From Pseudomonas sp. RC10 (GTDB lineage: Bacteria > Pseudomonadota > Gammaproteobacteria > Pseudomonadales > Pseudomonadaceae), in the NCBI RefSeq assembly GCF_038397775.1, contig NZ_CP151650.1, forward strand, positions 6,405,001-6,469,000: a stretch of DNA of 64,000 bases, in the 5' to 3' direction. Position 1 is the stretch's first letter; each line of letters starts with the position of its first letter. The translations under genes and the position numbers were made by a program. Of the stretch, positions 5,059-10,387 are shown piece after piece. The notes beneath the pieces were generated by a model. It saw only the letters and a program-made list of their open reading frames with translations, searched no databases and was not told the DNA's origin.

Positions 5059-6975
5059 ATGTATCGCTGGACCGCCCAACGCCTTGGAAATATCAGTGTC
5101 AGTCGCAAGCTCGGGATCGGGTTCGGGCTGGTTTTGCTGTTGACGCTGGTCATCACCGCAACAGGCTGGTCGGGCGTGAGGTCGTTGATTGATCGCGGCG
5201 ACAAGCTCGCGATGATCTCCCAGATCAACGAATATTCCCTGGCGCTGCGCATTGCACGCATGAATTACGAAACCCAGGCCAACCCGGATACGGCGAAGGC
5301 CGTCATGACCGCGCTGGACCATCTCGACGCGGAGCTCAAGACGGCCCACGGCAAGCTCGTGGTCGGGAGCGACCTGAAGCTGCTGGACGCTCAGACTCAG
5401 GCCGCCACTGACTACCGTCGCGCATTCGAGGACATGGCCAAAGCCATTCAAGCCCGTGAAGCCAGCCGCGTGAACTTGGGCGCAGCCGCGGATGCCGCCG
5501 TGGACGAGGTCAACAAGATCGAAGAGGCGTTGATCCAGCACGACAACATTCTGCAATTCAACAGCGCCGTGGGCGTGAGCAAGCTGATTCAGCAGGCGCG
5601 TTTTCAAGTACGCGGCTACACCTTCAGCGGCAATCCAGATTTCGAAAAGAGCGCCACAGCCGCCATCGAAGAAGCCATCGTTGGCGTGAACACCTTGGCG
5701 GGCGACGTTTCGTCCCAATACATCCCGCAGCTGCAACGGGCGAATCTGGCCCTTAAAAGTTACGGCGCTGCAGTCGCACAATACCGCGACGCCCAACGGG
5801 TGAGCCGCCAGGCGCTGCAGAAGATGGAGGGGGTCGGTCAGCAGTTGCTCGACCTGAGTGACAAATTGACCACCTCACAAAATACCAAGCGAGACGCCGA
5901 CAGCGCGCAGGCGCAATCGATGCTGAGTCTGGCGACAGCGCTGGCTCTGTTTTTCGGGGTCCTTGCGGCGTGGGCCATTACTCGCCAGATTACCCTGCCG
6001 TTGAAACACACACTCGTCGCGGTGGATCGCGTTGCGTCCGGCGACTTGACCCATAACCTGAGCATTGATCGCCGTGACGAACTGGGTCAGCTGCAAGGCG
6101 GCATTCAGCGCATGACAGTGAACCTGCGCGAGCTGATCGGCGGCATCAGCGACGGTGTCACGCAAATCGCCAGCGCCGCTGAGCAGCTGTCCGCGGTGAC
6201 CGAGCAGACCAGCGCCGGGGTTAACAATCAGAAAGTCGAGACGGACCAGGTCGCTACGGCCATGCACCAGATGACGGCCACGGTGCAAGAAGTCGCACGG
6301 AATGCCGAGGAGGCTTCAGAAGCCGCTGTGGCGGCCGATCAGCAGGCCCGTGAAGGCGACAAGGTCGTGAGCGAGGCCATCGCTCAAATCGAGCGTCTGG
6401 CCACCGAAGTGGGGCATTCCACCGAGGCCATGGGTGAACTCAAGCGCGAAAGCGACAAAATTGGCAGCGTGCTGGACGTGATCAAGTCGGTCGCGCAGCA
6501 GACCAACTTGCTGGCGCTCAACGCGGCCATCGAAGCCGCCCGGGCCGGTGAAGCGGGTCGCGGCTTCGCCGTGGTGGCCGATGAAGTGCGCAGCCTGGCC
6601 CAGCGCACACAGAAATCCACCGAAGAGATTGAAGACCTGATCGCGGCCTTACAGAACGGCACGCAACAGGTGGCGACGATCATGGACAACAGCCGTGAAT
6701 TGACGACCAGCAGCGTGGAACTGACCCGTCGGGCTGGTGGCGCGCTGGAAAGCATTACCCGAACCGTGTCCGCGATCCAGTCCATGAACCAGCAGATTGC
6801 GGCCGCCGCCGAGCAGCAAAGTGCAACGGCCGAAGAGATCAACCGCAGTGTGCTGAACGTGCGGGATGTGTCGGAACAGACCTCAGCGGCCAGTGAAGAA
6901 ACCGCGGCATCCAGCGTGGAGCTCGCACGTTTGGGCACGCATCTGCAGGGGCTGGTCGGCCGGTTCAGGGTGTGA
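5059..6975 (+). CDS. Methyl-accepting chemotaxis protein, probable helical-bimodular sensor
   Basis: Transmembrane chemoreceptor of 638 residues. Order: short cytoplasmic N terminus, TM1 (about 18-37), an all-helical periplasmic domain of about 250 residues, TM2 (about 284-306), HAMP (about 306-360), then the signalling coiled coil with the conserved hairpin tip ([20 protein letters not shown], about 488-507). The size and all-helical character of the sensor match the HBM domain of McpS-like receptors for small organic acids; that ligand class is inference. No CheR-tethering pentapeptide is visible at the C terminus (GLVGRFRV). The next receptor gene (8444-10387) is a close paralogue with an almost identical signalling half. 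Confidence 0.92.
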
Positions 6976-6990
6976 ATCTACACACTTATT

Positions 6991-7075
6991 GTAGGAGCCG
7001 GCTTGCTGGCGAATGCGGTGGGTCAATCCCCTTATCATCGGATTACACACCGCTTTCGCCAGCAAGCCGGCTCCT
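6991..7075. repeat. REP doublet, class a, interrupted by the IS110 element
   Basis: Inverted pair GTAGGAGCCGGCTTGCTGGCGAA ... TTCGCCAGCAAGCCGGCTCCT. The right unit stops after CTCCT at 7075. The expected ending ACA is found instead at 8372-8374, after the insertion sequence. Joining 7075 to 8372 restores a normal REP end (GGCTCCTACA). This fixes both the target site and the element's boundaries. Confidence 0.9.
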
Positions 7076-7111
7076 TGTATCTCGACTCTGGCGTTTCATC
7101 GCGCCATAGTT

Positions 7112-7268
7112 CTCGACTGATCATCGAGGGAGAGCCGGGAAGCTGTTCAGCTCCTAAGGCCTCAGAGCTTACAAAGTAGATAGAGCTCCGGTTCTCCAAC
7201 CTCACTCGAAAAGTCCGAACGGTATCCAGTGCGCGCCTTCGGCGTGAGCACGCATGTACAAGGCAGGA
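7112..7268 (+). ncRNA. Candidate IS110 bridge RNA with target- and donor-binding loops
   Basis: Three successive structures can be read in the left end. (1) A small hairpin CTCGA (7112-7116) with TCGAG (7124-7128). (2) A 10-bp stem GGAGAGCCGG (7129-7138) with CCGGTTCTCC (7188-7197, one G-U), extended by AGCT/AGCT (7141-7144 and 7184-7187), enclosing a large loop. (3) A third region with hairpin 7229-7251. Candidate guides: AGCTCCT (7149-7155) repeats the left target up to the core CT; GTAG (7176-7179) is complementary to the right target CTAC; TACAAGG (7257-7263) is complementary to the element's own left end across the core (7073-7079). A left-donor guide is not clear; GAAAAGTCC (7208-7216) partly resembles the right terminus. 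Architecture and positions parallel the IS621 bridge RNA. The ends are approximate. Confidence 0.68.
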
Positions 7269-7312
7269 CCGGGTGACGCGATGATCGTGTGCAATCGACT
7301 CTGGAGAGCGCC

Positions 7313-8284
7313 ATGTCTGCTTTTGTTGGCATCGATATCGCCAAAAACTCATTTGATATCGCCACCCCGCTGGATAACGGGAAGTTCAGGACCAAAGCCA
7401 GGCTGGCCAATAATCCCAAGGGTTATCAGGTGCTGCTCGACTGGCTTACCACCCACTCCGAGCCCCATGCCTGGGTCGTGATGGAAGCCACCAGCGTCTA
7501 CCACCAGGGCGTTGCTGATTGCCTTCACGCTCACGGATACCGGGTGTGCATCGTCAACCCTGCGATCCTCCACCAGTACGGCAAGGATGAGCTGCGCCGG
7601 GTCAAAACCGACAAGGCCGATGCAAAGCTGATCGCCCGCTATGCGCAAGACAAGCACACCAGACTGCGCGAGTGGGTGCCGGAGCCCGCGCCACGTCGGC
7701 GCTTGCGCGCGTTGGTGCGTCGACTGGAAGATTTGCAGGAAATTCAGCAGATGGAAAGCAATCGTCTGGATGTCGCCGAAGACAAGGTCAAAGCGTCGAT
7801 CGAGTCGGTGATCAGCCACGTCAAGCAACAGATCGACGAGACCAGGAAAGCGATCAAAGACAATATTGACGACGATCCTGACCTGCGCCAGAAGCGCGAT
7901 CTGATCGTGACCATCGACGGGCTGGGGGATACGACCGCAGCGCTGATCCTGGCCGAACTCGGCGACCCATTGGATTACAAGGGCCCCAAATCTATCGTTG
8001 CCTTTGCGGGCCTGGACCCACGTTGTGCTAGCTCGGGAGAGTCGGTAGGCCCGACCCATATATCCAAAACCGGCTCGAAAAGGCTGCGCGCCGGGCTTTA
8101 CATGCCAGGCATGGCTGGCCTAAAGCACAACGCGGTGTTGCGAGAGCTAAAGACCCGGATGCGCGCCAATGGGAAAGCCCCAAAAGAGATCATCTGTGCA
8201 GCAATGCGAAAGCTGCTGCATCTGGTCTATGGCGTGCTGAAATCGGGCAAGCCGTTCGACGCAGAAATTGCGCTTGCCCGGTGA
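7313..8284 (+). CDS. IS110-family DEDD transposase/recombinase
   Basis: Protein of 323 residues from the ATG at 7313, which follows a GGAGAG Shine-Dalgarno sequence and gives the standard start MSAFVGIDIAKNSFD. The RuvC-like DEDD residues are visible as D8, E58 (VVMEATS), D100 and D103 (VKTDKADAK). After a helical linker the C-terminal Tnp domain contains GLGDTTAALILAELGD, FAGLDP, and SSGESVGPTHISKTGSKRLR, the segment that carries the family's catalytic serine. In IS621 the protein works with the bridge RNA to recombine donor and target. The reading frame is intact, so the element may still be active. Confidence 0.95.
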   Translation: MSAFVGIDIAKNSFDIATPLDNGKFRTKARLANNPKGYQVLLDWLTTHSEPHAWVVMEATSVYHQGVADCLHAHGYRVCIVNPAILHQYGKDELRRVKTDKADAKLIARYAQDKHTRLREWVPEPAPRRRLRALVRRLEDLQEIQQMESNRLDVAEDKVKASIESVISHVKQQIDETRKAIKDNIDDDPDLRQKRDLIVTIDGLGDTTAALILAELGDPLDYKGPKSIVAFAGLDPRCASSGESVGPTHISKTGSKRLRAGLYMPGMAGLKHNAVLRELKTRMRANGKAPKEIICAAMRKLLHLVYGVLKSGKPFDAEIALAR

Positions 8285-8443
8285 TGGGCAAGACGGTATC
8301 TACGAAGTCTTGCGGTACTCGGAAGAAATGTGTGACCCGCATCACTCCCGCCATCGCCTCAGAAATCTCCTACACCCTCTTCAGGTCACGCTCCCGCCTC
8401 CCCTGCCGATGCGCGCTTATCGCCCATCCGCAGGAGATGCACC

Positions 8444-10387
8444 ATGTCGCAAGGAATCAACGGGGCGCTGGCCAATACCAGCGTCAAACTCAAACTGGCA
8501 CTGGGCTTCGGCCTGGTATTGCTGCTGACGCTGATCATCACCCTCACAGGGTGGCACGGACTGGACGCCATGATCGAGCGTTCGGAATCGCTGACCTCCA
8601 TCGCTCAGCTCAACACCATGACGGAGGATCTGCGGGCAGAGCGCATCATCTTTCGCGTCGAAAACACGGCAGCCAGTGCGACCAGCGTGCTGGACGGGAT
8701 CAACGAAATCGAGGCGCATTTGGGCGTCTTGCGTAAAGGGGATCACCCCGCCGACGTACTTGACATGCTCGCCAGGCAAAGCGACACCGTGCGGTCGCTG
8801 GAGACAGCATTCAACGATCTGAGCCAACTGTTAGAGACCCGCGACGCTTCACGGCTGCACATGGACAAGCTGTCGAACACCGTGATCGCAGCCATCGATC
8901 AGGTCGAAGCCGATGTGCTGAAGGCCGTCAGCGAGGAACAGGGCAACAGCGAAAAGCTCGATGAATTCACCAACATTCTGCAATTGCGGCGGCATATTCA
9001 GGACGCGCTTTACGCCGCACAGGCCTATCTCTACAGCGGCAAAGAGACATTTGAGTCGGCAGTAATAACGGCCATCGATGAAGCGCTCAAGGAAGTCGAC
9101 CAGATCATGGCCAGCCCGTCCAACACCAACGCGGCCATTCTTGAAAGCGCGAGAAAAGCCTTGGAGGACTACCGCGCGCAACTGGCTCAGCTCAAGGTGC
9201 TGCAGGTCAAAGCAGACGCTGCGCAAGGGTCGATGGCGACCTTGGGCGATACGCTGCTGGAGTCCACTGACAAGATCAGCTCACTGCAAAGCCAGCGCCG
9301 GGACAGCGATGCCGACCGGTCGCGCAACACCCTGATCGGCGTGGCACTGCTGGCTATCGTGCTGGGGCTGTTGGCCGCTTGGCTGATCACCCGGCAGATC
9401 ATCCTGCCACTGCACCAGACCCTCGCAGCCGCCAAGCGGATTGCCAGCGGCGACCTGAGTGTTGACCTCGACGTGCAACGCCATGACGAAATGGGCAGTC
9501 TGCAACAAAGCATGCAGGACATGACCCTGCGACTGCGGGCGCTTATTTCGGGCATCAGTGACGGTATCGCGCAGATTGCCAGCGCCGCCACGCAGCTGTC
9601 GGCGGTAACCGAGCAGACCAGCGCCGGGGTCAACGATCAGAAACGCGAAACAGATCAGGTCGCCACGGCGATGAATCAGATGACCTCCACTGTGATGGAA
9701 GTCGCACGCAACGCCGAAGAGGCCAGCGAGGCGGCGGTGCAGGCTGATCAGCAGGCGCGGGAAGGTGATCAGGTGGTCGCAGACGCCATTGGCCAGATCG
9801 AACGGCTGGCGGTCGAGGTGGCCAATTCCACCGACGCCATGGGCAAGCTCAAGCTGGAAAGCGACAAGATCGGTGGCGTGCTGGACGTGATCAAGTCGGT
9901 GTCTCAGCAGACCAACTTGCTTGCGCTGAATGCCGCCATCGAAGCGGCCCGGGCGGGGGAAGCGGGGCGGGGGTTTGCCGTTGTCGCCGATGAAGTGCGC
10001 AGCCTGGCCTTGCGCACGCAGCAATCCACCGAAGAAATCGAACTGTTGATCGCGGCCTTGCAGAGCGGCACGCAACAGGTGGTCAGCACATTGGATGCCA
10101 GCCGCACATTGACGGATCGCAGCGTCGAGTTGAGCCGGCGGGCCGGTGCGGCGCTGGAGCACATCACCCGCACGGTCTCGACGATCCAGACCATGAACCA
10201 GCAGATCGCGACGGCAGGCGAAGAACAAAGCGTCGTCGCCGAGCAGATCAACCGGAGCGTGCTGACCGTGCGGGATGTGTCCGAACAGACGGCAGCAGCC
10301 AGCGAAGAAACCGCCGCTTCAAGCCTGGAACTGGCGCGGCTGGGGACGCATCTGCAAGAGATGGTCGGGAAGTTTCGGGTGAGCTGA
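8444..10387 (+). CDS. Methyl-accepting chemotaxis protein, paralogue of the upstream receptor
   Basis: Protein of 647 residues with the same plan as the receptor at 5059-6975: TM1 (about 14-36), an all-helical periplasmic domain of about 250 residues, TM2 (about 295-317), HAMP, and a signalling domain with the same hairpin tip ([20 protein letters not shown]). The sensor halves have clearly diverged while the cytoplasmic halves match closely, including long stretches at DNA level. This points to duplication followed by sensor divergence or gene conversion. The start has a good ribosome-binding site (GCAGGAGATGCACC). Only 72 bases separate the right end of the insertion sequence from the ATG, so the insertion has probably changed its promoter or uncoupled it from the first receptor. 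Confidence 0.92.

Follow-up and report, generated by a model that had tools for sequence, protein, structure and literature searches.

A window of 64,000 nucleotides of Pseudomonas DNA, the whole stretch analysed here (positions 6405001-6469000 of contig 1 of genome G000), carries an active-looking element of the IS110 group. Judging from its sequence, this element very probably inserts by bridge-RNA-guided recombination, a reading to which we assign a probability of about 0.93. We computed directly the boundaries of the element, the matches of its guides, the covariation of guides with targets and donors, the covariation of stems, the catalytic residues and the target preference within the genome. 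The first-pass annotation had already interpreted the element as bridge-RNA-guided and REP-targeting, and our results support this interpretation. Both of the contrary observations it named that could be looked for here came out the other way: loop bases follow the target rather than being identical at different targets, and the stems covary. Coordinates are those of the window, and features lie on its forward strand unless stated otherwise.

Boundaries and insertion site of the element

The genome carries seven identical copies of the element, one of them in the window. Comparison of their junctions gave an element of 1226 bp (7074-8299, counting one CT core), consisting of a left non-coding end of 237 nt (7076-7312), a recombinase of 323 amino acids (7313-8284) and a right non-coding end of 15 nt (8285-8299). 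The left end is the longer one, in length what would be expected of the IS110 group, and its extent agrees with the 237 bases proposed earlier. The left boundary is the CT core at 7074-7075, where CT/TGTAT is common to the copies and their relatives. The right boundary lies at 8299 and is followed by a second CT (8300-8301); every one of the seven copies has CT at both of its junctions. The copies agree through CTAC (8300-8303) and diverge afterwards, the match of the other six ending at 8303 or 8304. Because the seven copies differ there, the sequence past 8303 is host DNA, and a right end at 8371, as given in the first-pass annotation, is ruled out as about 70 bases too far. The host DNA contains CTCCTAC at 8367-8373, a REP-end look-alike that is the probable source of the right end first proposed.

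The window copy sits in one arm of a REPIN (6991-7075), between two similar ORFs (5059-6975 and 8444-10387) that we named chemoreceptor-like by eye. The left REP arm of the struck REPIN, GTAGGAGCCGGCTTGCTGGCGAA (6991-7013), is intact, has the GTAG-REP form listed in Table 1 of PMC2817692 and recurs in the same genome at 79-86% identity among the matches listed. The right arm (7055-7075, reverse strand), delimited by sequence and by the copy junctions, is split by the insertion and resumes as AC at 8302-8303; the genome holds 97 intact occurrences of GCCGGCTCCTAC.

The junctions place the left target at 7067-7073, reading CCGGCTC in the window copy and CCAGCTC in the other six, and the right target, CTAC, at 8300-8303, including the second copy of the core. 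The right donor is CTTGTAT (7074-7080), which is invariant in our set since relatives were chosen by it, and the left donor, placed by junctions and relatives, is ACGGTAT (8293-8299). In a search of 57 genomes for an empty orthologous site, none of the matches listed from outside the element's own genome spans the gene end through the core, and we therefore used the intact REPs of its own genome as the empty-site reference. No copies were found on Pseudomonas plasmids: relatives at E 1e-60 occurred in 3 of 72,556 plasmid records, none of them from Pseudomonas.

The recombinase

The 323-amino acid protein matches the Pfam families PF01548 (2e-27) and PF02371 (4.2e-18) and shares 126 of 316 residues (40% over 316 aa) with the IS621 recombinase. 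Among solved proteins, it matches the IS621 structure 8wt6 (E 3.1e-64) and ISCro4 (E 3e-63); the IS621 structure entries are 8wt6-8wt9, 9whx and 9why. D8, E58, D100, D103, S241 and G242 are invariant across 17 aligned proteins, its own included. The catalytic residues align with D11, E60, D102, D105 and S241 of IS621, and mutating these five IS621 residues is reported to have abolished recombination (PMC11208158). With a predicted DEDD RuvC-like domain (PF01548), PF02371 and a conserved serine, the protein is assigned to the IS110 group of the IS110 family. The homologue search scored 7997 proteins, 3075 of them at E 1e-60, and the best 120 of these were listed.

Predicted structure of the bridge RNA

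The left end is predicted to fold into a hairpin, a target loop and a donor loop with conserved stems, as a bridge RNA does. The conserved structured core, defined by covariance model R2 and by covariation, spans 7109-7278. An extra 5' hairpin with compensatory change in its pairs is predicted at 7087-7108, and the second hairpin (helix 1) at 7112-7128. The target-binding loop (7129-7197) is closed by stems 7129-7134/7192-7197 and 7141-7143/7185-7187 (helices 2 and 3), and the donor-binding loop (7203-7275) by stems 7203-7207/7271-7275, 7214-7216/7266-7268 and 7229-7232/7248-7251 (helices 5-7). The first-pass annotation had described a hairpin, then a stem around a large loop, then a third structured region, and this order was borne out (7112-7128, 7129-7134/7192-7197 and 7203-7275).

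Covariation carries the case for this predicted structure. RNAalifold applied to 23 left ends returned 51 pairs, 23 of which show compensatory change. We then ran a stem test on 29 of the 51 pairs, those within 7109-7278, leaving out four pairs, three of which connect one donor-guide side to the other. In this test 95.9% of cells were paired, and changes on both sides were seen in 14 pairs and 57 cells, compared with 8.1 and 20.2 after shuffling. Slid controls gave 2-5 pairs and 3-9 cells, a comparison that favours the structure since it was drawn from the same alignment. One of the five measures, further pair types, equalled the shuffles (25 vs. 25.0; 321 of 500 shuffles as high). Single-sequence folding energies stood out little from shuffled sequence (z −1.78 and −1.92; 11 and 8 of 200 shuffles were as good), and thermodynamic folding, being near chance, was dropped as proof.

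For searching, a first covariance model (R1), which lost the outer stem of the target loop, was replaced by R2 (23 rows, IS621 absent). R2 matched 20 of 21 untrained loci chosen from the 161 loci, the weakest at E 0.003, with L132 the only miss; among the loci matched was the left end of IS621, at E 2.4e-8. Rfam gave no match at the gathering score. A weak promoter-like pair, TTGCCC-17-TATCTT, spans the circle junction.

Guides in the left end

Four guides were placed in the left end. The left target guide (LTG), UCAGCUCCU at 7147-7155, was located by the best-scoring start position and by site-by-site counts, and its first seven bases are UCAGCUC. The right target guide (RTG), GUAG at 7176-7179, is the complement of CTAC. 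The left donor guide (LDG), ACGGUAUC, lies at 7219-7226. The right donor guide (RDG), AU-gu-ACAAG at 7254-7262, has nine guide nucleotides for seven donor bases: AU (7254-7255) and ACAAG (7258-7262) are complementary to CTTGTAT at 7074-7080. The IS621 RDG is described as having a discontiguous nine-for-seven pairing as well (Durrant et al., PMC11208160).

Three motifs noticed earlier, AGCTCCT (7149-7155), GTAG (7176-7179) and TACAAGG (7257-7263), are all present there. For TACAAGG, the ACAAG part holds as a donor match, whereas the last G falls outside it because the base before the core in the circle is T (8299), not C. The left donor guide, previously called not clear, became visible once the right end was corrected to 8299: ACGGTATC at 7219-7226 equals 8293-8300. 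With equal base frequencies, plain arithmetic predicts about 0.004 occurrences of a named 8-mer in 237 nt and about one of GTAG. The matches to CAGCTCCT, the site used by six copies, and to ACGGTATC therefore stand on their own, whereas the GTAG match alone proves nothing.

Covariation of guides with targets and donors

We collected relatives from 18 of 248 other Pseudomonas genomes (E 1e-40), together with 80 loci from named genomes, several of them repeated. The 161 loci yielded 134 readable left ends, 59 distinct ones and 44 representatives below 90% identity; the other 27 loci, with a cut flank or without CTTGTAT, were excluded from the guide tables. Selection by CTTGTAT and GTATCT means that the right donor and the core are fixed in these tables.

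Every left-end position was scanned against the seven non-core bases of the left target, with this element represented by its window copy, the worst-fitting of the seven. The best start was 7147, with an agreement of 0.812 over the 44 representatives (runner-up 0.425). The value is no higher because the LTG of the methanotroph group is one alignment column off and a few distant members differ. Agreement was 0.988 (159/161; runner-up 0.478) over the 23 Pseudomonas-type representatives (left end CTTGTATCTCGAC), which have 16 distinct 7-mer targets. Shuffling the targets 500 times gave a mean of 0.535 and a maximum of 0.720, and in 60 shuffles scanned over all columns the highest agreement was 0.621.

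Of 78 distinct insertion sites taken singly, 71 fit the LTG at all seven bases, and the other seven are this element's own copies. All seven have a mismatch at LTG position 1, rU facing dG, and the window copy also has rA opposite dC at position 3. For LTG pairs differing by at least two bases, the own guide fitted the target better in 1058 of 1069 comparisons, which are non-independent, worse in 3 and equally in 8. In a near-minimal pair, L023 and L108, LTG and target have both changed in step (GTACGCC, GTCCACC), and the left ends are otherwise 92% identical. These results indicate that the LTG covaries with the left target, with whose bottom strand it is predicted to pair. L010 of genome G110, an element with at least eight copies, has a natural mismatch at the core: its LTG finishes with CA, whereas the core of the target reads CT.

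Pseudomonas elements have almost the same donor throughout, and where it does change, the LDG changes with it. We compared the LDG with the three bases before GTATC, scoring left ends with several GTATC by the best one. Of the 40 representatives in which both could be read, 31 matched at all three bases, with four types among them (ACG 25, ACA 4, GTG 1, AGA 1), and the other 9 matched at two of three (AGA against GGA). The LDG also matches two further donors, ACGATATC (in L011 and L030, from one genome) and ACAGCATC (in L120 and L121). Covariation with the left donor thus supports a predicted pairing between the two. The RDG is complementary to the right donor; since loci were picked by CTTGTAT, covariation could not appear.

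Of 127 loci, some of them fetched twice, 120 have CTAC as their right target (RT), as do 35 of 40 representatives. The RTG gives little covariation in Pseudomonas because it hardly varies there. It changes with the RT in three distant relatives, L126, L131 and L134, following it over seven bases; the RTs CTTCATC, CTGACCC and CTTCGGG have matching RTGs in their elements. Misfits occur in L009, L020 and L153, with the P. batumici-type AUAG against CTAC, the others being found where the RT is CTGC or CTAT. In genome G079 (L009, L028 and L038-L042), the RTG is AUAG, yet all seven copies lie at CTAC, a natural right-guide mismatch.

Target choice within the genome

All seven copies lie inside REPs at one position, the target being CCAGCTC-CT-AC in six and CCGGCTC-CT-AC in the window copy. 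Counted as patterns rather than as checked REPs, the intact sites of the genome number 18 for GCCAGCTCCTAC, 97 for GCCGGCTCCTAC, 226 in all for GCNNGCTCCTAC and 419 for AGCNNACTCCTAC, compared with 6, 3, 24 and 5 for the respective reversed patterns. All 100 of the 419 sites that are among the matches listed read AGCTCACTCCTAC. Before insertion, there would have been 24 GCCAGCTCCTAC sites (18 intact and 6 occupied) among 652 sites (226, 419 and 7 occupied). Six of the seven insertions fall in these 24 of 652 sites, a rare REP variant spelled by the guide (P = 8.8e-9), and the 628 other counted REP ends hold just the insertion of the window copy. Against GCNNG sites only, P was 4.2e-6, and against GCCGG sites only, 2.0e-4. 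Since the copies have different outer flanks, each was counted as an independent insertion.

The target of the window copy is a REP one base off, probably GCCGG originally, since the partner REP arm is also GCCGG. In another REPIN of the same contig (L007, about 629230-629313), the GCCGG arm is intact and the GCCAG arm is occupied, so that the element lies in the better guide-fitting arm. Three PF01797 genes are present in the genome. No RAYT beside the targeted REP class was found among them within about 1.5 kb, and two of the three have REPs of other classes within that distance. The RAYT-like PF01797 genes L182 and L183 (contig 1, 455845 and 2346427) have the REPs GTAGGAGTGAGCTTGCTCGCGAT and GTAGGAGCGAATT[CT]ATTCGCGAA nearby.

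Proposed mechanism and alternatives

We take the element to work as IS621 does, whose anatomy it shares, and on this analogy we presume that the RNA is transcribed, that it binds the recombinase and that strands are exchanged. The element would be excised to form a circle closed at its CT core, and its left end would be transcribed into the bridge RNA. The target loop would pair through the LTG with the bottom strand of the left target and through the RTG with the top strand of CTAC, while the donor loop would pair through the LDG with the element's right end and through the RDG (AU..ACAAG) with its left end. The DEDD/serine recombinase would exchange strands at CT, and the element would thereby come to lie at the GTAG foot of the REP palindrome.

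The left end might instead be mainly a structured 5' UTR that, together with an antisense RNA, regulates translation of the transposase, with the target matches being incidental. ISPpu9 provides a precedent: a 5' UTR of 244 nt is described for its tnp mRNA, and translation is reported to be raised by an antisense RNA of roughly 180 nt (PMC8450116). The left end here, at 237 nt, is of similar length. Such control leaves unexplained why fixed columns of the left end track the insertion site and why the LDG tracks the other end of the element, and as the main explanation we consider it highly improbable, although UTR control and a guide role may coexist. It is also scarcely credible that the REP hairpin is recognized directly by the recombinase and that the guide matches arose from capture of target-like DNA by the left end. 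This proposal would account for the CTAC that ends most targets (120/127 loci) and for the 6-base palindromic arm in 52 of 112 distinct left flanks (6.5 when shuffled), a strict test that detects no arm for the element's own REP or for 29 of 58 left ends. However, the three right targets other than CTAC named above have matching RTGs, left ends that are 92% identical outside the LTG lie at different targets tracking the LTG, and a single base decides between REP variants within one genome. We therefore retain bridge-RNA-guided insertion as the preferred reading.

The right target guide and the REP tag

The RTG GUAG equals the GTAG tag that precedes REPs. The E. coli REP transposase is described as depending critically on such a tag, most often GTAG, which other systems can partly do without (PMC8266576; see also PMC3733652). 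The targets found here agree with the REPs tabulated in PMC2817692: those in G110 and G218 are the reverse complement of the REP listed for P. putida W619, and those of L022, L088 and L091 resemble the H. influenzae REP. The three changed RTGs favour the view that the constancy of the RTG is owed to REPs rather than to the protein. Tentatively, and with somewhat less than even confidence, we propose a division of labour in which the near-constant RTG copies the REP GTAG tag used by RAYT/TnpA-REP, while the LTG is retuned for each host palindrome. REP turnover would then be followed by few LTG substitutions with the donor guides nearly fixed, and mismatch tolerance would reach drifted REPs, as at the window copy. 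The words GTAG and RAYT are absent from the main text of PMC11208160 and of PMC11187229. No paper on bridge RNA and RAYTs was among the matches listed in our literature search, which covered main texts that were largely open access.

The genome offers a compact natural experiment on bridge-RNA specificity: across 652 counted REP ends and seven insertions, about one guide base decides the site. The 23 related elements, whose donor is almost uniform while their left targets number 16, show natural reprogramming. They provide candidate orthologues and guides for Pseudomonas genome engineering, and the L023/L108 pair and the natural mismatches suit tolerance tests.

Comparison with known systems

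Bridge RNA was described for IS621, an IS110-group element of E. coli (Durrant et al. 2024, PMC11208160). The element resembles IS621 (L081) in its CT core, its CTTGTAT left end, the order of guides in the left end and a REP target ending in CTAC. Both have a guide with a natural mismatch, reported at target position 4 for IS621 (PMC11208160). In contrast to IS621, for which a single 5' stem-loop is named (PMC11208158), two 5' hairpins are predicted here; the LTG UCAGCUCCU also differs, and the donor is ACGGTAT rather than ACAGTAT.

REPs were recognized as IS110 targets by Tobes and Pareja in 2006 (PMC1525189). ISPpu10 and ISPpu9 of P. putida KT2440 are likewise Pseudomonas IS110 elements in REPs, a likeness drawn from published descriptions only (PMC1525189, PMC8450116); each is reported to have all seven of its copies in REPs, with 2-bp repeats where it inserted (PMC1525189). 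For ISPpu10, the legend to Extended Data Fig. 10 in Durrant et al. 2024 (PMC11208160) announces predicted guides, and natural re-direction of IS1111/IS110 elements is the subject of PMC11187229.

Among the relatives, L009 (72% aa identity), whose left end is common to P. batumici L082-L086, and L030, whose left end is common to P. graminis L113, share the left-end motif and a predicted bridge RNA. Their LTGs, CCAGCUCCU and CCGGCUCCU, each fit the target at seven of seven bases, and both types are without the LTG position 1 mismatch of this element. Unlike this element, the L030 type has the donor ACGATAT with the LDG ACGAUAUC; L011, from the same genome as L030, shows 63% aa identity. With REP-targeting IS110 elements and bridge RNAs already known, ISPpu10 included, the novelty implied in the first-pass annotation is lower. 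Overall, the element is a well-supported added member of the known bridge-RNA IS110 kind and not a new kind of system.
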